DNA of 33,341 nt from Candidatus Roizmanbacteria bacterium GW2011_GWA2_35_19 (GTDB lineage Bacteria > Patescibacteriota > Microgenomatia > UBA1406 > GWC2-37-13): the NCBI GenBank assembly GCA_000990565.1, contig LBQC01000017.1, positions 1 through 33,341 on the forward strand, read 5' to 3'. The notes below the pieces were generated by a model, which saw only the letters and a program-made list of their open reading frames with translations, was not told the origin of the DNA and made no database searches. The position numbers were made by a program, and so were the translations under genes. Shown in pieces: positions 4,779 through 33,188 of this stretch (position 1 is its first letter; each line of letters starts with the position of its first letter).

Positions 4779-5129
4779 ATGGATCCTCGACACAACGCCC
4801 GGGTAAAAATTGTTCAAGAACTTTTTTCTTTAGGTTTTGCAAAGCAAAATAAACTCGATGCTAAAACAACGCTTATTGTTAAAAATCAACAAACAATAGA
4901 AGAAGCGATTAAGAAGCACGCACCAAAATTTCCAATCGATAAAATTGCAAAAGTAGATCTTGCCATATTGAGTTTGGCTGTATATGAGCTCATAATAGAA
5001 AAAAAAGAGCCGCCAAAAGTGATTATAAATGAGGCCGTAGATCTTGCGCGCGAAATGGGAAGTAATAAAGCTTATGCATTTGTAAATGCGGTTTTAGGAA
5101 AGATTTATAATGAATCAATTAAGTCTTAA
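4779..5129 (+). CDS. nusB: Transcription antitermination/rRNA processing factor NusB
   Basis: NusB binds boxA RNA with S10 and supports antitermination in rRNA transcription. The protein starts MDPRHNARVKIVQELFSLGF, matching the N-terminal helix of NusB. It has the conserved IAKVDLAILSLAVYEL segment (residues 62-77), then PPKVIINEAVDLAREMGSNKAYAFVNAVLGKI (84-115), the most conserved part of the family. At 116 residues it is somewhat shorter than the usual 130-150. The 3' end overlaps the preferred start of rnc by 20 bases, so translational coupling is likely. Confidence 0.93.
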   Translation: MDPRHNARVKIVQELFSLGFAKQNKLDAKTTLIVKNQQTIEEAIKKHAPKFPIDKIAKVDLAILSLAVYELIIEKKEPPKVIINEAVDLAREMGSNKAYAFVNAVLGKIYNESIKS

Positions 5130-5835
5130 AAATCTTATGACAAACAAATTTACGCCTCTTGAGAAAAAAATAAACATAACTTTTAAAAATAGGGATCTAT
5201 TAGAAAATGTGTTTATTCATAGATCTTATCTTAATGAGCACAAAAGTTTTAAGCTTCCTTCAAATGAAAGGCTCGAATTCTTAGGTGACAGTGTTTTATC
5301 CCTCATAACCTCAGTTTATCTATTTAAAAATTATCCTAAGCTCAAAGAGGGAGACTATACTGAGATAAAGTCGGCGATAGTTAAAACGGAGAGCTTAGCG
5401 GAGGCGTCCGCAAATTTAGGATTAAACGAGTATCTGATGCTTTCCCGCGGCGAAATAAAAGGTGGAGGTAAAGATAACCACAATATGTTAGCGGATTGTT
5501 TCGAAGCGCTGATAGGGGCTATATTTTTAGACCAGAGTTTTGAAAAAGCCTATAAATTTGTGTGCGATTTTTTATTTAAAGACAAGCTTGATTATATTGT
5601 TAAAAACGATCTCTATTTATCAGCAAAGAGCAAATTGCAGGAAATAATTCAGGGAAGATATAAGATGACGCCAACTTACAAAGTACTTGAGGAGAAAGGG
5701 CCTGAGCACAAGAGGGTTTTTAAGATAGGGGTTTACTTTAATAATAAGCGCTTAGGACTAGGGGTTGCTATGTCAAAAAAAGAAGCTGAGGAGAAAGCGG
5801 CCAATAATGCTTTTGAAAATTTAGATTCGCTATGA
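5110..5835 (+). CDS. rnc: Ribonuclease III
   Basis: This is the double-strand-specific endoribonuclease that processes rRNA precursors. The catalytic signature NERLEFLGDSVLSL lies near residues 56-69, and the second acidic cluster (DCFEALIGAIFLD) near 130. A C-terminal dsRNA-binding domain follows (SKLQEIIQGRYKMTPTYKVL... then GLGVAMSKKEAEEKAANNAF). Length of 241 is typical. ATG 5110 is preceded by AGGAAAG at a suitable distance, so I keep it although it lies inside nusB. An in-frame ATG at 5137 is the alternative. Confidence 0.95.
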   Translation: MNQLSLKNLMTNKFTPLEKKINITFKNRDLLENVFIHRSYLNEHKSFKLPSNERLEFLGDSVLSLITSVYLFKNYPKLKEGDYTEIKSAIVKTESLAEASANLGLNEYLMLSRGEIKGGGKDNHNMLADCFEALIGAIFLDQSFEKAYKFVCDFLFKDKLDYIVKNDLYLSAKSKLQEIIQGRYKMTPTYKVLEEKGPEHKRVFKIGVYFNNKRLGLGVAMSKKEAEEKAANNAFENLDSL

Positions 5836-5849
5836 TATCATGAACTCTT

Positions 5850-6101
5850 ATGGCAACAACATTAAGACTATTTAAAATTGGAAAAAAAGGCTATCACACA
5901 TTTAAAATTGTGGCCGTCGATCGTAGATATAAAGCAGATGGCGACTATATTGAGGCACTCGGAGCCTATAATCCAAACGTTGATCCAGTAGCCTTTGAGC
6001 TCAAAAAAGAAAGATTTGAATATTGGACTAATAAAGGAGCAATAATTTCAGAAGGTCTCGGAAAACTTCTTAAAAATAAAGACATTAAAAAAAAGCTTTA
6101 A
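5850..6101 (+). CDS. rpsP: 30S ribosomal protein bS16
   Basis: This is a small-subunit assembly protein. The sequence (MATTLRLFKIGKKGYHTFKIVAVD, then DGDYIEALGAYNPN) matches the bS16 family, and the length (83) is typical. The residue after KIGKKG is Tyr, where many homologues have Lys or Gln before P. It lies 14 bases after rnc. Its stop codon overlaps the stop of the convergent pilO-like gene (shared ttaa). Confidence 0.95.
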   Translation: MATTLRLFKIGKKGYHTFKIVAVDRRYKADGDYIEALGAYNPNVDPVAFELKKERFEYWTNKGAIISEGLGKLLKNKDIKKKL

Positions 6102-6784
6102 AAAGGATTTGATTTCCTTGGATATGAGGTATCTACTACTTCTTCACCTGAATCTTTGTAAGAATATTCAACCTTTTCTTTAAGTTTTGTTATTTCTTCA
6201 ATTGTTTTTTCATCTACATCAAATTTACTTCCATAATCAAGGGTATTTTTTTTATTATAAAATGATAAATCAATTTTTATTTCCCCAGAAATCTGTGGAT
6301 TTAATTCGATCTTATCAGAAGTAATTAGTCTATCCCCAAAATAATTATATTTTTCCAAAAAGTTCATAAAAGTAGTTGTATCACCTGATCCTGTGATTGA
6401 AAGCCTTAATTTTGTTGAGGTAGATTTATTCATATCAATAGTGTATGAAGTGACTATAAATCCTGTTTTTTGTGAAAGCTTATCAAGTGAATAAATTATA
6501 GAAAAATAATCTTCAGAGTTAGGGATTAAGCTATTTAAAAAATGAATGTTTTCTTCTAAAACTTCAGAGGATGGGACTTTAGTATTAAGAAGATCATATT
6601 TTGTTTGAAGTTCCTGTACTTCGGCCGTTAATACTAAATTTTTTTGCTTCATACTAAGGTTTTTATCAATACCAATCTTTAAAACAACTCCAATTAAGAT
6701 AATCAAAATTACGTTAGTGGCAATATAAAGAACGTTTTTTTTAACAAGTTGAAATATATAAGGCTTAACTCTTTTTTTACTCAT
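6098..6784 (-). CDS. PilO-like type IV pilus alignment protein
   Basis: A bitopic membrane protein with a short basic cytosolic tail (MSKKRVKPYIF), one transmembrane helix (residues 18-36), a coiled-coil stretch (MKQKNLVLTAEVQELQTKYDLLN) and a ferredoxin-like periplasmic domain. This is the architecture of PilO/GspM-like proteins that link the inner-membrane platform. It ends with a charged tail (EEVVDTSYPRKSNPF). It overlaps the upstream pilN-like gene by 8 bases and follows pilM, so gene order (M, N, O) supports the call more than sequence does. Confidence 0.7.
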   Translation of the reverse strand: MSKKRVKPYIFQLVKKNVLYIATNVILIILIGVVLKIGIDKNLSMKQKNLVLTAEVQELQTKYDLLNTKVPSSEVLEENIHFLNSLIPNSEDYFSIIYSLDKLSQKTGFIVTSYTIDMNKSTSTKLRLSITGSGDTTTFMNFLEKYNYFGDRLITSDKIELNPQISGEIKIDLSFYNKKNTLDYGSKFDVDEKTIEEITKLKEKVEYSYKDSGEEVVDTSYPRKSNPF

Positions 6785-19976: not shown

Positions 19977-20531
19977 TTATCGATCTCGGTTTACCGGAGT
20001 TGGCGTTAAGGTTGACTTAGGAGTAATAGTTGGAGTGATCCAATCTGGAGGCTTACCGGCAAAAGTTCCTTGACCTGGTTTTATCCCTGTTACTTTTTGA
20101 ATCCATGGTAAATATTCATATACATTCTTGTAGAAAGCCTTATAATTAGTCAAATCCGATATAAAATCACCACCCACACTGATTCCGGTTAAATAATATT
20201 TTCCGCTTTGATAAAAGAATAATGGTCCGCCAGAGTCTCCACTATTTACAATTTGACCAGTATCGTTATAAAAACTCATTAAATATGTTTTGTAGAATTT
20301 ATCACTATTTAGAGAGACTACATTTTTAGAAAACTCCTTTATTATAACTTTACCTTGTTGCAAAACATCAGGAGACGTATTTTTTAAGTCCGTGCTTCCC
20401 CATCCTAAAATTAAACCATTTTTATTCAAAATGTTTTTATAAGTATTTTGATCAATTAACGATAAATATGGTAGGTTAATATTCTCAGTTAATTCAATAA
20501 GTCCAATATCATTAGCATCAAACTCACACAA
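19977..20531 (-). pseudogene. Trypsin-like serine protease, C-terminal part after an in-frame amber stop
   Basis: This frame continues exactly in phase from the 20532-21011 fragment after one TAG codon. It carries the catalytic Asp (FDANDIGLIEL, the NDIALL motif of S1 proteases) and catalytic Ser (NSGDSGGPLFF), with the usual ILGWGSTD segment between. The tail is Pro/Thr-rich (ITPTITPKSTLTPTPV), similar to the tail of the nearby PBP. Without the N-terminal part it lacks the signal anchor and catalytic His, so alone it cannot be an active protease. The track start (TTG) is probably not used. Readthrough, a nonsense mutation, or a base-call error (CAG to TAG) could explain the split. Confidence 0.8.
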
Positions 20532-21011
20532 CTAACCTTCTTTACATTCAGAAATTACTTTTACAATTTCCTGTGGCTCTATTAAGTAGGTGTTTTTTAC
20601 TTTTGGAAAAATTAATGAAACATTTTTTTTATTATTGTTATCACTTAGTTTATACAAATTTAAAACTACGCGTAAATTATATGGACTTACCTTATATTTC
20701 ATTTCTACATCAAATGTTAAGCAATGTCGGGCTGTGATTATCCATTTCGGTGAAATTAAAGCCCCACCGCAGTATACTCTAGAAATTCCAAAACTAGCAT
20801 TGTGTTGGATATACACCATAAAAGGCCATTCGCCGGGATCTGCTGGGTGTCCTCCAATTATTGGCTGCACAGTCTCCGCTTTTGTAATTGTAGTTTTTTG
20901 GTTGCTGTTAATTTTGATTGCTACTATGAAGAATAAAAAAATTGTGATAAATAAAATTGCTGCAAAGAAAATCTGTTTTGAAAAACAAAATTTATCAACG
21001 AATTTAGACAT
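20532..21011 (-). pseudogene. Trypsin-like serine protease, N-terminal part ending at an amber stop
   Basis: A hydrophobic helix at residues 13-32 (IFFAAILFITIFLFFIVAI) predicts a membrane anchor or signal. The mature S1 fold starts at PIIGGHPADPGEWPFMVYIQ, with IIGG as the activation-type N-terminus. The catalytic His lies in CGGALISPKWIITARHC (ARHC in place of AAHC). The frame ends ECKEG-TAG, and the same frame continues as LCEFDANDIGL with the Asp and Ser residues. It is transcribed divergently from the PBP gene from a leaderless-type promoter. Whole-protein length without the stop would be about 343 residues, normal for a secreted S1 protease with linker. Confidence 0.82.
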
Positions 21012-25583: not shown

Positions 25584-25901
25584 CTAGAACTGTTCCAGGA
25601 AACGAATGTCTCCTGAATAATAATTTCTAATATCATCAAGTCCATATTTCATCATAATTACGCGCTCTATACCGAATCCAAAAGCCCAACCAGAGTATTT
25701 TTTTGGGTCAATCCCGCCATCTTTCAAAACATTAGGGTGGACCATACCAGTCCCACCAAGTTCAAGCCATCCAGACTTGCAGACTTTACATCGGACACCC
25801 TCAGGGTGACCATTCTGCCTCTGGTCACCCTGAGGGTGTCCAGAAAAGCCAGTTCCCTTGCAAACAGTGCAGGTAATATCAACCTCAAATGAAGGTTCGG
25901 T
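25584..25901 (-). pseudogene. pheS: PheS C-terminal part, out of frame with the N-terminal part
   Basis: Starting right at the junction, this frame reads [11 protein letters not shown] and ends [12 protein letters not shown], exactly 105 residues. It carries the conserved GMVHPNVLK and [17 protein letters not shown] (class II motif 3) of PheS. Between two CxxC pairs (CTVC and CKVC) the loop [18 protein letters not shown] is encoded by a perfect 20-bp-arm palindrome. It has no start codon or ribosome site of its own, so it should be read together with 25902-26530. It is -1/+2 relative to the upstream part. Confidence 0.85.
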
Positions 25902-26530
25902 AAGCCTTCAAATTGGTGAAACATCGGGGTGTGGGTGGCATCCCAGTTTGGCCGATAGCACTTGGAAATATTAATCATTCTAATTGGTGGCTGACCCACT
26001 CTTTTCATTTCTCTATTCTGGCCGTTTGAAGTATGAGGAGTTAAGACCATTCGGTCAAATTTTGGGTGGGCAGGAGCATTAATATATGATGTTTCAAAAT
26101 CATCTCTCGCTGGGTGGCCTTTTGGCATATTTAAAGACCCAAAAGCTCCCCATTCCCAGTCAACTTCTGGGTATGAAACTCTAATAAAACCGATTTTCTC
26201 AAAAATTTTGGTAATTTCTTCGACAGCTAAAGAAACAATGTGCAAGCTACCCCTCGGATAGATTTTACCAGGAAGTGTTGAGTCAAAGAATTCATCTGTT
26301 GTTTTACCCCTTAATTCTTTTCTCCTTACTTCGATTAATCGAAGTACATCGTTTTTAATCTTATTTACTTTTTGGCCATACTCGCGTTTTTCTTCGTTAG
26401 GAGTGTCTTTGATAGCCGAAAGTAACTTATTTATTTCACCATTACGGCCTAAATACTTTATTTCAAGTTGATTAATTTCTAGTAATGATTTAGAACCATT
26501 AATTTCAGTTTTATATTTTTTGGAATCCAT
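25724..26530 (-). pseudogene. pheS: Phenylalanyl-tRNA synthetase alpha subunit, N-terminal part with frameshifting internal deletion
   Basis: Residues 1-209 are normal PheS: an N-terminal coiled coil (NQLEIKYLGRNGEINKLLSAIK), then PRGSLHIVSLAVEEITKIFEKIGF, YPEVDWEWGAFGSLNMPKGHPARD, LLTPHTSN-like VLTPHTSNGQNREM and [20 protein letters not shown]. The 38 residues that normally follow (ending with the RPSxFPF part of motif 2) are missing, and the frame shifts at 25901-25903. From there this ORF reads an unrelated [10 protein letters not shown]... tail. The real C-terminus is in the frame 25584-25901. The loss, estimated from homologue length, is about 115 bases. A functional PheRS is essential, so assembly error must be considered. 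Confidence 0.88.
25793..25841. repeat. REP-like palindrome inside pheS
   Basis: Perfect 20-bp arms: ggacaccctcagggtgacca (25793-25812) and its exact reverse complement (25822-25841), with a 9-base loop. The core CTCAGGGTGAC also occurs in the recG element. Confidence 0.85.
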
Positions 26531-28681: not shown

Positions 28682-29218
28682 TCATTTTCTTTTTGCAACT
28701 ACAGCCCTGATCACTCTTCCCTCAAGGCGCGGGGGCTTTGATACATTGACTTCTCCGAGGCTTCCTATATATTTGTTCATCAAGTCAAATGCCATCGGTT
28801 TTTTCATTACTTCTCGGCCTTTAAGAAGCATATTCACTCGCACTTGGTAGCCTTCTTTTAGGAACTCCTTACCTTTATTTTCAAGACGTTCAAGGTCAGC
28901 TACTCCGATAAATAAAGACAAAGATATATCCTTAGACCCGCTTTTCTTAATCCCCTTTTTTGCCTCTTTTTCCTTCTTCTCTTCTTGATAAAGGAATTTT
29001 TTAAAATCTATAAGTTTTGCAACTGGGGGTTTAGCGTGTTGGGCAATCAAAACAAGGTCGACATACTTTTCTTGAGCTAATCTTAATGCTTCTTGTTTCG
29101 AAATTACTCCTATTTGAGCGCCTTTATCATCTATAACACGCAAAGTAGGCGCTTCAATACGGTAATTTGTAATGTAATACTTCCTTGGTTTGTAGCTTGG
29201 TCTATGAAAACTTCTCAA
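28682..29218 (-). CDS. infC: Translation initiation factor IF-3
   Basis: IF-3 proofreads initiator tRNA on the 30S subunit. The N-domain begins YYITNYRIEAPTLRVIDDKGAQIGVISKQEALRLAQ (residues 14-50). The linker (KLIDFKKFLYQEEKKEKEAKK) and C-domain (KDISLSLFIGVADLERLENKGKEFLKEGYQVRVNMLLKGRE) are complete, although many homologues have IKEIRL at the position of SKDISL. Length of 178 is normal. The start overlaps the end of thrS by 17 bases. In E. coli infC starts with AUU; here an ATG is used. Confidence 0.95.
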   Translation of the reverse strand: MRSFHRPSYKPRKYYITNYRIEAPTLRVIDDKGAQIGVISKQEALRLAQEKYVDLVLIAQHAKPPVAKLIDFKKFLYQEEKKEKEAKKGIKKSGSKDISLSLFIGVADLERLENKGKEFLKEGYQVRVNMLLKGREVMKKPMAFDLMNKYIGSLGEVNVSKPPRLEGRVIRAVVAKRK

Positions 29219-30473
29219 TTTCTTCTTTTAATTTTAAAATAAATTCACTAACTGCTAATTGTCCTAAATCCTTTCCCTCTCTGGTTCTTACACTGACTTT
29301 ATAGACTTTATGGACTTTATAACTTTCGACTTCCTTATCTCCAATTATAACGAGATAAGGAACCTTTTGCAACGTTGCTTCTCTGATTTTTGCCCCCAGG
29401 GTTTTATTATCCGAATTTAACTCAGCTCTGATTCCTGCTAATTTTAACTCTGCCAAAACCTTAAGACTGAAATCTTTTTGTTTCTCAGAAATTGGTAAAA
29501 CAGCCACCTGAACCGGCGAAAGCCAAAGCGGGAAAGCACCGGCATAATGCTCGATCAAAAATGCCATTGTTCGCTCAAAGGCGCCAAGCGAAGCCCGGTG
29601 AATAACGACCGGCTCTTCTTCCTGACTTTCTTTGTTGATGAACTTAAGCCCAAATCGTTTAGGCATAACAAAATCGTACTGAACAGTAAATGCCGTGTCT
29701 TCTTTTCCGTTTACATTCTTCATTTGGACGTCAATTTTAGGACCATAAAAGGCTGCTTCATTTTCCGCTTCGTAATAAGGCACAGCCTGATTTTTCAGAA
29801 CCTTACGTAAAACATTCTCAGCATAATCCCACATTTTATCGTCCTTATAATATTTTTTAGAATCAGTTCTTGACCCGAGTGATAGTCTAAAGCGGAAATC
29901 AGTACCGGCCTTTAATCCAAAAGCTTTATTTATATAGCTTATAAGGTCAAGGACTTTATTAATTTCGCTTTCGGCCATTTTTTTAGGAGTTATGATATGG
30001 GCATCGCTTAGCAGAAATGTCCTGACCCTTATTAATCCAGTTAGTTCTCCGCTTTTTTCATATCTAAACTGTGGAGAAATCTCGGCGTACCTAATTGGCA
30101 TTTCGTGGTACGAATGAGGTTGAGTTTTATATAGGGCAAAATGATGAGGGCATGTCATTGGTCTCAAAATCAGCTCTTCATCATCTACAATCATCGGTGG
30201 ATACATTGTGTCTTTGTAATAAGGATAATGACCCGATGTCCGATATAGATCAACTTTAGCAATTGGAGGTGTTGAAACATGCTCATAATCCCGCTTTAAT
30301 TCTTCATCGACTATAAATCTTTCAAGAATTCTTTTAATCGTTGCGCCTTTACCAGTTAAAAGTGGTAATCCTTTTCCGACCATATCTGAGAAAGCAAAAA
30401 GTCCGAGATCTTTTCCAAGTTTCCTGTGATCTCTTTTTTTGGCCTCCTCAAGTCTTTTCAGATGTTCTTCCAA
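29202..30473 (-). pseudogene. thrS: Threonyl-tRNA synthetase, catalytic and anticodon-binding part (out of frame with its N-terminus)
   Basis: This frame carries LEEAKKRDHRKLGKDLGLF, the class II core (YRTSGHYPYYKDTMYPP, LRPMTCPHHFALYKT with zinc Cys, RYEKSGELTGLIRVR as motif 2, HRASLGAFERTMAFLIEHYAG as motif 3) and the anticodon-binding domain (LSPVQVAVLPISEKQKDF). It is preceded in its own frame by GTKEE, which joins onto the N-terminal fragment 30458-30850 at about 30488. The track start is a TTG without a ribosome site. About 35-42 residues of the editing-domain end are missing at the junction. Next gene infC overlaps its end. Confidence 0.92.
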
Positions 30474-30850
30474 TTCTTCTTTTGTCCCATCTTGCAGAGA
30501 TCTAAAAAGTCCCCAGGATCATTAGTCTGCAATTTTTTTCCTTCTTTCGCAAATTTTTCGGCCATTTCAACCTTATATTTATTATCTTTGAATAACTTTT
30601 TTGCTTCTTGCAGAGTTATTTCTTTGAATGAAAATTTTTGCCACTTTGGAAGAATCTCCCTCATTTTAGCTTCAATTTTAGGAAAATCCGCTTCAGAAAT
30701 ATTCCATTTACCCATATCGAAGTCCTGGTAAAAACCGTTTTCGATCGAAGGTCCAATTGCATTTAGTGCCCCTGGGTATAATTGTTTTACGGCGTGAGCG
30801 AGCAAATGTGCGCATGAATGTCTTAAATTATCCAAATTTTTATTTTCCAT
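30458..30850 (-). pseudogene. thrS: Threonyl-tRNA synthetase, N-terminal (editing) part ending in a frameshift
   Basis: The protein starts directly with the SAD editing domain (MENKNLDNLRHSCAHLLAHAV), with the HxxxH metal motif (HSCAH); the TGS domain is absent. IGPSIENGFYQDFDM and FAKEGKKLQTNDPGDFLDLCK are family-typical. After DLCK the normal GGH...AGAYWRGD...IYGT stretch is absent, and the frame runs into MGQKKNWKNI-TGA while the true continuation (GTKEELEEHL) is in another frame. The second editing motif (CxxxH) loses its His. A TATAAT (30860-30865) lies 9 bases before the ATG. Confidence 0.9.
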
Positions 30851-30899: not shown

Positions 30900-30925
30900 G
30901 CTTTAATTATTTAATTAATTAAAGC
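30900..30925. repeat. AT palindrome, copy D
   Basis: 26 bases identical to copy B (19401-19426), starting gctttaattatttaa, including the preceding ccc. It overlaps the stop codon of the creatininase gene and lies about 50 bases upstream of thrS. Confidence 0.8.
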
Positions 30926-31740
30926 GATTTAATATTAGCAATTGGCCCTTTGTATTTTTTCAACCAACTTATAAAGTCTACCAAAACGTTTACCATATAA
31001 TCATGGTACTCTTTCCCTTTCTTCGGTGAGGCCTTTGAGGAATTGGAAAAAGATCCATCAGGAGCAAACGCTTTTTGTTCGTAACTATTCCAGGGGATAT
31101 CGATTACTTCTCCCGACTTTCCAAAAAGATCATACTGTGAATACTTCGAAAAAATCTTTTCATAATCTATTCCTTTTTTGGTCAATTTATCCTTTTTTAT
31201 TAAATGAGGATATTTATACCAAATATGAGACACTTCAAGTTCTCCCACGTGATGTTCTATATTATCCTTAATCTTTGAGGCGATTCCTTTAGCAATTTTC
31301 ATCGGATCGGCTATTGCAAAGAATACCTGAGGTAACTTGAATTCATGCAAATTTTTAACAGCAGAAAGGAGCGCTGGCAAGTTGGCACTTTTATGACCAT
31401 TGATTATGAGTATTTTTTTTACTCCGTTTCTAGCTAAGCTTTCGCTGATATCTTCAATGACGGATATAAGTGTTGAGGTTTTAAGTGACATAGTTCCGGC
31501 AAATCCAAGATGATGGCTTGAGTCTCCATACCATAAAGGCGGAGCAACAAGTACTCCGGTTTTTTTGGCCACATCCTCAGCTAATGCAATCGCGGCATAA
31601 CTATCAAGGCCCAAAGGACCAGTCAGTCCGTGTTCCTCTGTACTGCCAACTGGCAATATAATGATATTTTCTTTCTTGAGATAATTATTAACATCCTCCC
31701 AAGAAAGCTCATTGATCCAAACTGATTTTAGTTTATTCAT
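30919..31740 (-). CDS. Creatininase-family amidohydrolase/peptidase
   Basis: Metal-dependent hydrolase of the creatininase family (creatinine amidohydrolase, ArfB, and the mycofactocin peptidase MftE). Metal-binding and structural motifs are present: PVGSTEEHGLTGPLGLDSYAAI (residues 30-51; E, H and D ligands), the segment PPLWYGDSSHHLGFAGTMSL, IINGHKSANLPAL, and the late Glu in HHVGELEVSHIWY. Length of 273 is typical. It lies 16 bases after the unknown 263-residue gene and upstream of thrS. The substrate is unknown; a peptide or cyclic amide is possible. No riboflavin or creatine pathway genes are nearby. Confidence 0.85.
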   Translation of the reverse strand: MNKLKSVWINELSWEDVNNYLKKENIIILPVGSTEEHGLTGPLGLDSYAAIALAEDVAKKTGVLVAPPLWYGDSSHHLGFAGTMSLKTSTLISVIEDISESLARNGVKKILIINGHKSANLPALLSAVKNLHEFKLPQVFFAIADPMKIAKGIASKIKDNIEHHVGELEVSHIWYKYPHLIKKDKLTKKGIDYEKIFSKYSQYDLFGKSGEVIDIPWNSYEQKAFAPDGSFSNSSKASPKKGKEYHDYMVNVLVDFISWLKKYKGPIANIKSL

Positions 31741-31756
31741 ATATAAAAATTAATTT

Positions 31757-32548
31757 TTAATCATCTCTAAACCATGGTGGTGGTAAGATCATATTTCTAT
31801 TTAATTCGCGACTTTTATGACCGCCATGATGTCTTGTGTCATACCAATACATTTGAGCAATAGATTGTGGAAAAGTGTGTTCGGCTAATTCTCTTGATCC
31901 GTTAATAATAAATAAGAAGTCCCGCCAGTCAGGAATAAAAATTTGATCTTCAAGTTTTCGCATTAAGAAATAATAAAAAGCATTTAGAATACCATTAGAC
32001 TCATCATCTTCAATAGATACATCTGATTTATTGTGTCTTCCAGCCTGTTTTATTAAATCGCCTCTTATTTGATTAGGGATACGCATCCATTCATCAAATT
32101 CTACACCTTGTTTATGGTATAGTTGTTTTGAAGCCTCTGTCCAGGTAGGTAAAATCAATCTTTTTTCTTTATATAGATCTGATAATAAAACCCAATTAAA
32201 ACCCTTCGATGTTCCTTCATTTTGCATTAAATCCAAATATCCATGATCAGGCATACTGTTTGACAACCCATGAATATCCGCTCCAATTAGTGAAACTTCC
32301 ACACCAAATGGATAATTTTTAAGTAATTCATTTTGAACTTGTGCATATCTAGCCAGTAAAGCAATATCGCTTTTCCCTAAGTGATTTTTTCCACCTTGTC
32401 CAATAAATCCTGCTATTTGGATAGGTAATCCTTTTGAATGATTTTTCAAAATAGCACGTTCAAAAAGATTTCTATCATTAATACCTCCCTTTGTGACAAA
32501 AGGAATAATCCTATCTACGGTTTTTTGTAGACTAAATTCTGCATTCAT
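31757..32548 (-). CDS. Unknown 263-residue protein, weakly reminiscent of PvcA/DIT1 isocyanide synthases
   Basis: No family is recognised with confidence. A weak resemblance to the isocyanide synthase family is seen in order and spacing: KSDIALLARYAQVQNELLKNYPFGVEVSLIGADIHG resembles pD.aE..AL..L......YpPGA.v.i.sDG, and near the end FPQSIAQMY... HHGGHKSREL... ILPPPWF resembles the FP..irlsiH...gK..i.L...TPWH tail. It is rich in conserved-looking His, Trp and Asp residues. The ATG 32548 is preferred to GTG 32557 because of a strong AGGAGGTG eight bases upstream, rare in this window. It follows the attenuator-like leader and precedes the creatininase gene. It has no signal or membrane segment. 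Confidence 0.6.
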   Translation of the reverse strand: MNAEFSLQKTVDRIIPFVTKGGINDRNLFERAILKNHSKGLPIQIAGFIGQGGKNHLGKSDIALLARYAQVQNELLKNYPFGVEVSLIGADIHGLSNSMPDHGYLDLMQNEGTSKGFNWVLLSDLYKEKRLILPTWTEASKQLYHKQGVEFDEWMRIPNQIRGDLIKQAGRHNKSDVSIEDDESNGILNAFYYFLMRKLEDQIFIPDWRDFLFIINGSRELAEHTFPQSIAQMYWYDTRHHGGHKSRELNRNMILPPPWFRDD

Positions 32549-32572
32549 ATTTTTCACCTCCTTTCCATAAAA

Positions 32573-32600
32573 CGCCCTCCTTCGCTAAAGCTTCGAAGGG
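32573..32600 (-). repeat. Hairpin between the leader terminator and the 263-residue gene
   Basis: The minus strand reads gcccttcg ... cgaaggagggc with loop aagctttag. It resembles the REP-like halves elsewhere (cccttcg). It lies just upstream of the AGGAGGTG ribosome site, so it could influence translation. Confidence 0.6.
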
Positions 32601-32601
32601 C

Positions 32602-32629
32602 AAAGAAAAACCCCGCTCTGGGCGGGGTT
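32602..32629 (-). terminator. Strong intrinsic terminator after the Thr-codon leader ORF
   Basis: 8-bp perfect stem AACCCCGC / GCGGGGTT (32622-32629 with 32609-32616 on the minus strand), loop CCAGA, followed by TTTTTCTTT. It lies 25 bases after the stop of the 21-residue ORF and about 60 bases before the next gene. Its 5' arm and loop can alternatively pair with the end of the leader ORF. Confidence 0.9.
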
Positions 32630-32686
32630 GATTTTTTAAATTTTTAATCCATTCTAACCACCGCCCAAAGTCATAGGGGTTGTGGT
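32616..32686 (-). promoter_or_regulatory. Attenuator: alternative antiterminator and sequestering helices
   Basis: Region 2 (CUUUGGGCGG, minus strand of 32661-32670) pairs with region 3 (CCGCCCAGAG, minus strand of 32616-32625) over 10 bp with one G-U pair, which would disrupt the terminator. Region 1 (ACCAC and CCC within the Thr-Pro codons, 32677-32686) can instead pair with region 2 (GGG and GUGGU, 32657-32666), leaving the terminator free. This is the 1:2, 2:3, 3:4 logic of amino acid attenuators. Confidence 0.65.
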
Positions 32687-32719
32687 AGTACAAACATTAT
32701 TATGATAATTTTTATCCAT
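32654..32719 (-). CDS. 21-residue Thr-rich leader peptide (or RiPP-like precursor)
   Basis: A short ORF too small for the track. It begins MDKNYHNNV, continues with one Cys and four Thr codons in a row (ACT ACC ACA ACC), and ends PMTLGGG-TAG. A GGAGGG lies 13 bases upstream, as part of a terminator-like hairpin. The strong terminator follows the stop. Size, Thr run, terminator and alternative pairing all resemble the E. coli thr operon leader, so a Thr-sensing leader peptide is my preferred reading. The alternative is a precursor for a modified peptide made by the next two genes. A Thr-responsive control would fit thrS lying downstream. Confidence 0.65.
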   Translation of the reverse strand: MDKNYHNNVCTTTTPMTLGGG

Positions 32720-32720
32720 A

Positions 32721-32748
32721 TAAAAACAAAATCCCTCCTTTCGGAGGG
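32721..32748 (-). terminator. Second hairpin with U-rich tail, before the Thr leader ORF
   Basis: Perfect stem CCCTCC / GGAGGG with a GAAA tetraloop (minus strand), followed by ATTTTGTTTTT. It could terminate upstream transcription, and its 3' arm contains the GGAGG that might serve the 21-residue ORF. Confidence 0.7.
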
Positions 32749-32759
32749 GTAAATTTTAC

Positions 32760-32789
32760 AAAAAAAACACCCTCCGTCAGGCGGGAGTG
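32760..32789 (-). terminator. First hairpin with U8 tract, overlapping the end of the 15-residue ORF
   Basis: An imperfect stem (CACTCCCGCC...CGGAGGGTG on the minus strand) followed by eight T. The 5' arm is formed by the last codons and stop of the 15-residue ORF, so a ribosome there would block folding. Confidence 0.65.
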
Positions 32790-32824
32790 GTGCAAGCGCA
32801 AATTAAGATTCTTTCTATTTTCAT
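32777..32824 (-). CDS. 15-residue leaderless leader peptide
   Basis: MKIERILICACTTPA-TGA. It has two Cys codons around Ala, then Thr-Thr-Pro, echoing the CTTTTP of the 21-residue ORF. The ATG lies 7 bases after a good extended -10 box, so translation would start at the mRNA 5' end. Its last codons lie in the terminator hairpin 32760-32789. Such an ORF is small enough to occur by chance; promoter placement and the overlapping terminator are the reasons to list it. Confidence 0.5.
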   Translation of the reverse strand: MKIERILICACTTPA

Positions 32825-32831
32825 AATTTTG

Positions 32832-32859
32832 ATTATATCACCAATTTTTATAAAATCAA
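32832..32859 (-). promoter_or_regulatory. Promoter for the leader region of the unknown protein-creatininase cassette
   Basis: The minus strand has TTGATT (32854-32859), a 16-base spacer and TGA-TATAAT (-10 at 32832-32837), seven bases before the 15-residue ORF. It starts at the very end of the coiled-coil gene (stop at 32856). Confidence 0.75.
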
Positions 32860-33188
32860 ACGTTGATTGGAAAAACTTTTTCCTCAAGTTTTCCGATCCG
32901 TTTATTGTGATCGTTAATAGAATTATCATCGGTTTTAAGCTGATCTAATACTTTATCTATTTTATCACTTAATTTTTCGTCGACCTTATCAATCTTATCA
33001 ATTAATTTCACCTCAACCTTATCAATCTTGTCACTTAATTTTTCGTTGACTTCCTTTATATAAGAATTACTTGCTGTGAATAAACCAACCATTTCTTTTA
33101 TGAGAATTTTATTATTTTTAACTAAAGCGCCACTTATAGCTTTGCTGACTGTGCCAGAAATATATTTTTTATCATCTTTTGTAAGCAT
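32856..33188 (-). CDS. Coiled-coil protein with hendecad repeats, unknown function
   Basis: A small cytosolic protein of 110 residues. The N-terminal part (MLTKDDKKYISGTVSKAISGAL) is helical and mildly basic. Residues 53-88 contain three 11-residue repeats of the pattern EKLSDKIDKVE, VKLIDKIDKVD, EKLSDKIDKVL, which predicts an 11-periodic coiled coil. The tail is KRIGKLEEKVFPINV. Repeats are also clear at the DNA level. Similar short coiled-coil proteins are frequent in CPR genomes, but no function is known. It is followed by the leader-region promoter. Confidence 0.75.
   Translation of the reverse strand: MLTKDDKKYISGTVSKAISGALVKNNKILIKEMVGLFTASNSYIKEVNEKLSDKIDKVEVKLIDKIDKVDEKLSDKIDKVLDQLKTDDNSINDHNKRIGKLEEKVFPINV

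Follow-up and report, generated by a model that had tools for sequence, protein, structure and literature searches.

The locus described here raises the question of what a 21-residue peptide, encoded in front of an undescribed pair of enzyme genes, is for. It lies on the minus strand of a 33,341-nt stretch of DNA (the window), contig 17 (LBQC01000017.1) of the 1.12-Mb draft genome of Candidatus Roizmanbacteria bacterium GW2011_GWA2_35_19; homologues in named records likewise come from Candidatus Roizmanbacteria. The initial annotation had listed the tiny peptide, a terminator, a 263-residue protein (gene 1) and a creatininase (gene 2), all of which were found on that strand. It had read them as a minimal cassette for a ribosomally synthesized and post-translationally modified peptide (RiPP), and had missed a second leader open reading frame (ORF) further upstream, encoding MKIERILICACTTPA and followed by its own terminator. 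To judge from sequence comparison, the two short frames very probably encode the leader peptides of a transcription attenuator sensing threonine and probably also cysteine, and the locus as a whole is probably best explained as an amino-acid-starvation operon. Along the minus strand the order is promoter-like site, leader 1, terminator 1, leader 2, terminator 2, gene 1, gene 2, thrS, infC and rplT, with the following features:

32832..32859, minus strand: putative sigma-70-like promoter, TTGATT-16-TATAAT, 10 of 12 consensus matches
32777..32824, minus strand: leader peptide 1, MKIERILICACTTPA and stop codon; ORF with counterparts in five other genomes
32769..32776, minus strand: antiterminator 1, 5' arm CGGAGGGT, complementary to ACCCCTCCG (32750-32742), from the sequence
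32733..32748, minus strand: terminator 1, CCCTCCGAAAGGAGGG-ATTTTGTTTT, from the terminator scan
32654..32719, minus strand: leader peptide 2, MDKNYHNNVCTTTTPMTLGGG and stop codon, 21 residues; ORF, shuffles and counterparts
32661..32666, minus strand: antiterminator 2, 5' arm GGGCGG, complementary to CCGCCC (32625-32620); duplex compared with shuffles
32609..32629, minus strand: terminator 2, AACCCCGCCCAGAGCGGGGTT-TTTCTTT, from the terminator scan
32554..32562, minus strand: Shine-Dalgarno sequence of gene 1, AGGAGGTGA, an ideal match
31757..32548, minus strand: gene 1, 263 aa, probable remote DIT1/PvcA protein, from profile and fold
30919..31740, minus strand: gene 2, 273 aa, creatininase-family metal-dependent amidohydrolase (PF02633)
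29202..30850, minus strand: thrS, threonyl-tRNA synthetase, the sole copy found in the genome, with a gap of about 118 bp relative to genome G007 near 30484

Two leader peptides in series

Leader 2, the peptide already noticed, contains one Cys, a run of four Thr and three Gly at its end. Tandem leaders precede the gene 1/gene 2 pair in six genomes, the window and the five listed below, in constant order (leader 1 / leader 2):

G007: MKIKFILICTCTTTL / MSKNNLNKVCTTTTRLVLGGG
G021: MKKQIVVSNCTCTTRL / MEKIILNNCCTTTTRLLWEDW
G026: MNKQMAVLSCTCTTFL / MKKIILNICCTTTRFYGR
G032: MIKNLFVNNTTTTAS / MSNIYIFKQLSCTTTTALPWAEL
G057: MKIYLVFSNCTTTTPQ / MRNKINLNLACLTTTTCFLAGSL

A single leader is found in G683, a member of another family (MNKFSQTCSTTTTTLNKGGFVV), and in G120 (MFMLLTSSTCTACDTAENCWEVGVIG, with its own terminator and antiterminator). 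The 14 leaders have the Cys-Thr run alone in common, the remainder of the peptides being unconserved; their Thr codons differ in the third base between genomes, while the amino acid is kept. A run of at least four Thr in a short ATG-initiated ORF upstream of gene 1 was never obtained in 2000 shuffles of the window sequence, and arose in at most 0.1% of cases by shuffling at the homologous loci. Cys accounts for 22 of the 268 leader residues, whereas its share in long ORFs is 0.56% (binomial P 6e-19, a value that ignores the kinship of the leaders), and therefore belongs to the conserved signal. One hallmark of an attenuator, a short frame in which codons for the controlling amino acid stand in a run, is seen in both leaders, with four Thr in leader 2 and Cys/Thr in leader 1, their translation being predicted.

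The region contains 5 terminator-like sites, compared with 0.4 +/- 0.8 in shuffled sequences, and behind each leader the antiterminator and terminator hairpins are mutually exclusive. Pairing of the antiterminator 1 type recurs in G026, G032 and G057, leader 1 having the same layout as leader 2. The tail codons of leader 2 pair with the 5' arm of the terminator, as GGGCGG/CCGCCC in the window, G007, G026 and G032, as GGGAGG/CCTCCC in G021 and the single-leader G683, and as GGCGGG/CCCGCC in G057; the Gly3 end is simply what the codons of the antiterminator arm, covarying with the terminator, spell out. The antiterminator 2 duplex of the window reaches -21.3 kcal/mol (p = 0.002 against shuffles); for leaders 2 and the G683 leader, at loci positive in the terminator scan, the duplexes are stronger than those of shuffled tails with p values of 0.002-0.008, and for G120 p is 0.004. 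The automatic scan is blind to some loci, such as the leader 2 terminator of G007, which is visible by eye. The 3' arm of terminator 1, GGAGGG, may double as the Shine-Dalgarno sequence of leader 2.

The element resembles the leader of the enterobacterial thr operon (thrL; RF00506) in its short peptide rich in the regulated residue, its overlapping alternative hairpins and its U-run terminator. In a lax Rfam scan over 32712-32602, Trp_leader (E 0.0012), Thr_leader (E 0.04; 23.7 bits against a gathering cut-off of 55), Leu_leader and Phe_leader align over it, all below gathering scores, and these matches are taken as support only. It differs from thrL in having two serial leaders and Cys codons beside the Thr run, in an output of thrS and the pair rather than thrABC, and in lineage, here Patescibacteria (Roizmanbacteria-like). 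Compared with the tandem attenuators of Salmonella mgtCBR (PMC3641672), structural genes and codons are different, both ORFs of the window being of the Cys/Thr type and each followed by one of two serial terminators.

Transcription would start just before leader 1. When threonyl-tRNA, and probably also cysteinyl-tRNA, is scarce, the ribosome would stall in the Cys/Thr codons of leader 1 and free the antiterminator arm to pair with the 5' arm of terminator 1; RNA polymerase would then read through and leader 2 would be made. A second stall, on the Thr run of leader 2, would open terminator 2 likewise, so that the two serial leaders would act as a double check on the expression of gene 1, gene 2 and thrS. 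With enough threonine, the ribosome would reach the stop codons and cover the antiterminator arm, and both terminators would form. The parts of this scheme, namely the leaders, terminators and antiterminators, their conservation, their association with thrS or cysS and the joint presence of the two enzyme genes, come from comparison of sequences; the order of events and the induction by starvation are what we infer from them.

In the window, the ATG of leader 1 lies 7 nt past the -10 hexamer, and since it is so near, ribosomes may read leader 1 from a transcript that is leaderless or nearly so. A -10-like hexamer is also found 6-8 nt before the leader 1 ATG in G007, G021 and G026 (window site 32822-32837).

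Leaders of the same kind before thrS

Does the signal concern the enzyme pair or the synthetase gene behind it? Of 33 thrS loci from the family and its relatives, 9 have a Thr leader upstream, whereas one arose in 20 of 1650 shuffles (1.2%); MKNNIVITTTTDSC and MNKYILINTTTTFSC are examples. Similar leaders stand directly before thrS in relatives without the pair. Downstream of the pair, thrS is found in the window, G007, G057 and G683, and cysS in G120. A further hallmark of attenuators, control of genes concerned with the same amino acid, is thereby seen twice, in the synthetase genes downstream of the pair and in the leaders that relatives carry on thrS alone. No leader stands immediately before thrS in G007, G057 and G683, where the pair precedes it; in G021 and G026, thrS lies elsewhere with its own leader, and the pair retains its own tandem Thr/Cys leaders. 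In pair-bearing genomes thrS is present in one copy where found; it was not found in G032 and is fragmented in G559 and in the window.

The leaders that precede thrS only (L084, L086, L089, L101 and L071) end in T-run-x-S-C and a stop codon, with Cys after the Thr run; in the pair leaders, Cys comes before it.

These leaders bear directly on the RiPP proposal, according to which gene 1 modifies the 21-residue peptide as a precursor, and the creatininase cleaves it, the part that MftE plays in mycofactocin. Gene 2 is weakly MftE-like (78.9 bits, missing the cut-off of 172), Cys and Thr are residues modified by RiPP enzymes, and genes 1 and 2 are strictly linked. However, there are two different short peptides in series, each with its own antiterminator and terminator; the peptide tails covary with a terminator arm, which is not protein-like behavior; and no radical SAM protein, cyclodehydratase, lanthionine synthetase or other RiPP maturase was seen among the window ORFs, read by eye, nor did genes 1 and 2 match any such family. 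Because leaders of this type also precede thrS in relatives lacking both enzymes, the proposal deserves hardly any credence. The initial annotation had itself held that a peptide unconserved apart from its Thr codons, or enzymes occurring widely without it, would speak against a precursor: the former largely applies, the Cys-Thr run being all that is kept; the latter does not, the enzymes being never leaderless where the upstream DNA can be checked, a circumstance which is compatible with an attenuator too.

Five relatives have a gene for threonine dehydrogenase a short distance before thrS, separated from it by a glycine C-acetyltransferase-like gene, which suggests a threonine-glycine gene cluster in the genus. 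In G007, where these two genes are at L007 7189-9370, the attenuator and the pair lie between the glycine C-acetyltransferase-like gene (kbl) and thrS. Sought as a sign of threonine prototrophy, thrC passed its cut-off in G559 and by a small margin in G000, and in no other genome, a result that decides little where genomes are incomplete.

The arrangement in G007, kbl and thrS being neighbors in several relatives, is as expected of an insertion at thrS, and might mean that the pair came to lie behind a thrS attenuator by chance, with no function related to threonine. This is very unlikely, given that in G021 and G026 the pair keeps its tandem leaders though thrS lies elsewhere with its own. 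Furthermore, in G120 leader composition and synthetase have shifted to Cys together, which speaks for the pair being part of the amino-acid response itself.

Gene 1, a probable remote relative of PvcA

The weak PvcA/DIT1-like features that the initial annotation had seen in the 263-residue protein hold up. The best match to PF05141 (DIT1_PvcA) is the G021 homologue, with 14.7 bits against a gathering cut-off of 26.4 (E 0.009-0.022); the window protein is absent from the PF05141 matches up to E 10. In the comparison of profiles that had been proposed as a check, eight gene 1 sequences, aligned by hhalign to twelve Patescibacteria PvcA-family sequences, rank these first (P 6e-5, probability 65%); the runner-up is the archaeal-type tyrosyl-tRNA synthetase (TyrRS) family (P 0.003), fam15 and fam18 (0.008-0.009) are PvcA members themselves, and unrelated families score 0.04 or worse. 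Finally, the window protein and its G026 homologue, which share 24% identity, were modelled with AlphaFold, and both low-confidence models have PIsnA/PvcA as top matches in the PDB (E 1e-4 and 5e-6, prob 1.00, TM about 0.5, for predicted models), followed by TyrRS, tryptophanyl-tRNA synthetase (TrpRS) and cyclodipeptide synthases. A direct sequence search of the PDB with gene 1 or its profile gave nothing meaningful, and the viral contigs searched contained no gene 1 relatives.

The core alignable with the isocyanide synthases (PvcA 3e59, PIsnA 9dh4/9dhm) includes a hydrophobic strand, a Lys, an Asp, YxxG and (S/A)D.H. Of the PvcA core motifs, the Asp of SDG and the Asp of PD are kept and the Lys of FPxKS is plausible, while the Glu of PDxxE is absent. 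Gene 1 also differs from PvcA in its score below the Pfam cut-off, its shorter length and its partner, a creatininase instead of a PvcB oxygenase. Profile comparison and modelling together make gene 1 a likely remote member of the DIT1/PvcA superfamily, and we call it a superfamily member, not an isocyanide synthase; yeast Dit1 itself seems not to form isocyanide (PMC7345447). No alignment with gene 1 was obtained for a more distant DIT1-like group, found in G026, G065, G059, G228 and G367 (P 0.14-0.19).

Gene 2 and the distribution of the pair

Gene 2 scores 190.9 bits against PF02633 (gathering cut-off 31.3) and has the metal-site motifs GSTEEHG, GLD and NGH. Besides MftE, it remains below the cut-offs of the other curated subfamilies of the creatininase family, creatininase (102 bits against 235), IolN (111 against 245) and the deformylase ArfB (14 against 180).

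Homologues of gene 1 were found in five genomes of the same family, G007, G021, G026, G032 and G057; a search of the class adds G683 and G559 to the pair-bearing genomes, and one of the phylum adds G120. A scan of genome contigs returned two loci only, identical to those of G021 and G026. Of 72 genomes searched, those with gene 1 are the ones that also have this creatininase (E at most 1e-20), gene 1 being always accompanied wherever both could be checked; the G032 locus is truncated by a contig end. The view that the two genes form an undescribed enzyme pair worth attention is supported. In open-licence full texts, no link between PvcA and tRNA synthetases or between creatininase and isocyanides was found, nor any leader-peptide attenuation, single or tandem, in Patescibacteria.

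True PvcA-family genes beside trpS

Is the vicinity of a PvcA-like gene and a synthetase gene peculiar to this locus? Three of about eleven PF05141 loci above cut-off that were examined have trpS downstream. In G070 (L063), trpR (PF01371, 78 bits) is followed by two pvcA-like genes (PF05141), trpS and an arginase-family gene. In G629 (L127) and G682 (L128), pvcA is followed by a gene fusing an editing domain to TrpRS; a tRNA-binding-domain protein is encoded directly next in G629 and, as read by eye, a few genes further in G682, and in G629 a tRNA-Trp gene lies between the leader region and pvcA. Like the window cassette, these loci join a PvcA-superfamily gene to an aminoacyl-tRNA synthetase gene; they differ in that the PvcA proteins are true PF05141 members, the amino acid is Trp rather than Thr/Cys, leader peptides give way to TrpR in G070 and to an unclassified leader in the others, and the hydrolase is of the arginase family or missing. 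There is, at the level of gene order and predicted control, an undescribed theme in which a PvcA-superfamily enzyme and the cognate synthetase share amino-acid-responsive regulation. It is possible, though somewhat less than probable, that Patescibacteria possess a whole family of such amino-acid-specific operons, responding to starvation or to synthetase inhibitors, in which the PvcA-fold enzyme is exchangeable.

T-box-like leaders precede the operons of G629 (L127, about 5580-5880, minus strand) and G682 (L128, about 6150-6580, minus strand), with a GGGTGGCAC motif and a terminator visible; Rfam gave no T-box match, for L127 not even at E 10, and the assignment is unproven. In G010 and G018, the genes for LeuRS and PheS that lie near pvcA-like genes are divergently oriented neighbors and were left out of the count.

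Apparent exchange of gene 1 and possible roles of the pair

Aligned with G007, the window shows 83% DNA identity over the stretch that comprises thrS and gene 2, and 80% in the attenuator. In between, BLASTN finds no match for gene 1: the similarity ends at 32602 and returns at 31761, at the gene 1 stop. The corresponding proteins are 33% (gene 1) and 93% (gene 2) identical, and across homologues identity to the window protein is 25-45% for gene 1 and 68-93% for the creatininase, the nearest gene 1 being that of G032 (45%). From these alignments, gene 1 looks as if it had been replaced in place between congeners, extreme divergence being the alternative.

What, then, would a starvation operon gain from the pair? 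We suggest, tentatively, that gene 1 acts on threonine, cysteine or a conjugate, and that the amidohydrolase cleaves an amide bond in its product or substrate, the two together helping the cell to acquire or salvage the amino acid that is short. Several findings weigh against the operon as a whole or this use of it. No synthetase gene follows the pair in G026 and G559; about 500 bp separate leader and gene 1 in G120; no Rfam leader model is reached at gathering scores; and confidence in the gene 1 models is low (pLDDT 62 and 64, from three sequences each, with TM about 0.5). Moreover, an enzyme with a housekeeping supply role would not usually be swapped in place as gene 1 apparently is, and a role in resistance or antagonism would fit such swapping better. 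Two serious rivals to salvage follow.

The first is resistance to synthetase inhibitors: uncharged tRNA would open the attenuators, more synthetase would be made, and gene 1 and the amidohydrolase would inactivate an inhibitor of ThrRS or CysRS. The predicted co-expression with thrS or cysS, the patchy distribution of the pair, the parallel PvcA-family genes before trpS, and a gene 1 less conserved than the creatininase and devoid of DNA similarity between congeners whose flanks are 80-83% identical all agree with this. On the other hand, thrS is regulated in the same way without the pair, and we know of no detoxifying member of the PvcA superfamily; we regard resistance as rather unlikely.

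The second, about equally unlikely in our judgment, is a starvation-induced small molecule: gene 1 would make an isocyanide, formyl or cyclic product from Thr/Cys or from tRNA esters, directed against neighbors or the host cell, and the amidohydrolase would tailor it. Isocyanide-synthase-like proteins are makers of natural products and spore-wall precursors, and cyclodipeptide synthases, which are structurally similar, act on tRNA esters. The nearest folds of gene 1, PvcA/PIsnA and then TyrRS/TrpRS and cyclodipeptide synthases, and its apparent swapping favor such a product, but neither an exporter nor a PvcB-type oxygenase was seen in the cassette, the PDxxE glutamate of PvcA is missing, and spending a scarce amino acid during the cell's own starvation would be uneconomic.

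That distant as well as true PvcA-superfamily members are encoded next to ThrRS, CysRS and TrpRS, with which they are probably co-regulated, in ultra-small bacteria that are mostly auxotrophic, points to a role in amino-acid shortage or synthetase inhibition. Since the attenuators predict the effector amino acid, the function of this unannotated pair is directly testable.

Other features of the window

Relative to G007, about 118 bp are absent from thrS (window 30470-30500), with a frame shift, and pheS (window about 25724-26530) has an internal gap, with a break after FEGL. The presence of gaps of this kind in two essential genes suggests errors of assembly, real damage being the alternative. 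The frame of a trypsin-like protease in window 19977-21011 consists of two ORFs that directly adjoin each other, 21011-20532 and 20531-19977. Upstream of the attenuator, a small ORF (window 32856-33188) encodes a coiled-coil protein, with similar counterparts in the same place in G013 and G057 (L078; L017 near 5060-5180), some of which have a terminal Thr run (VFITTTSS, VYSTTT).

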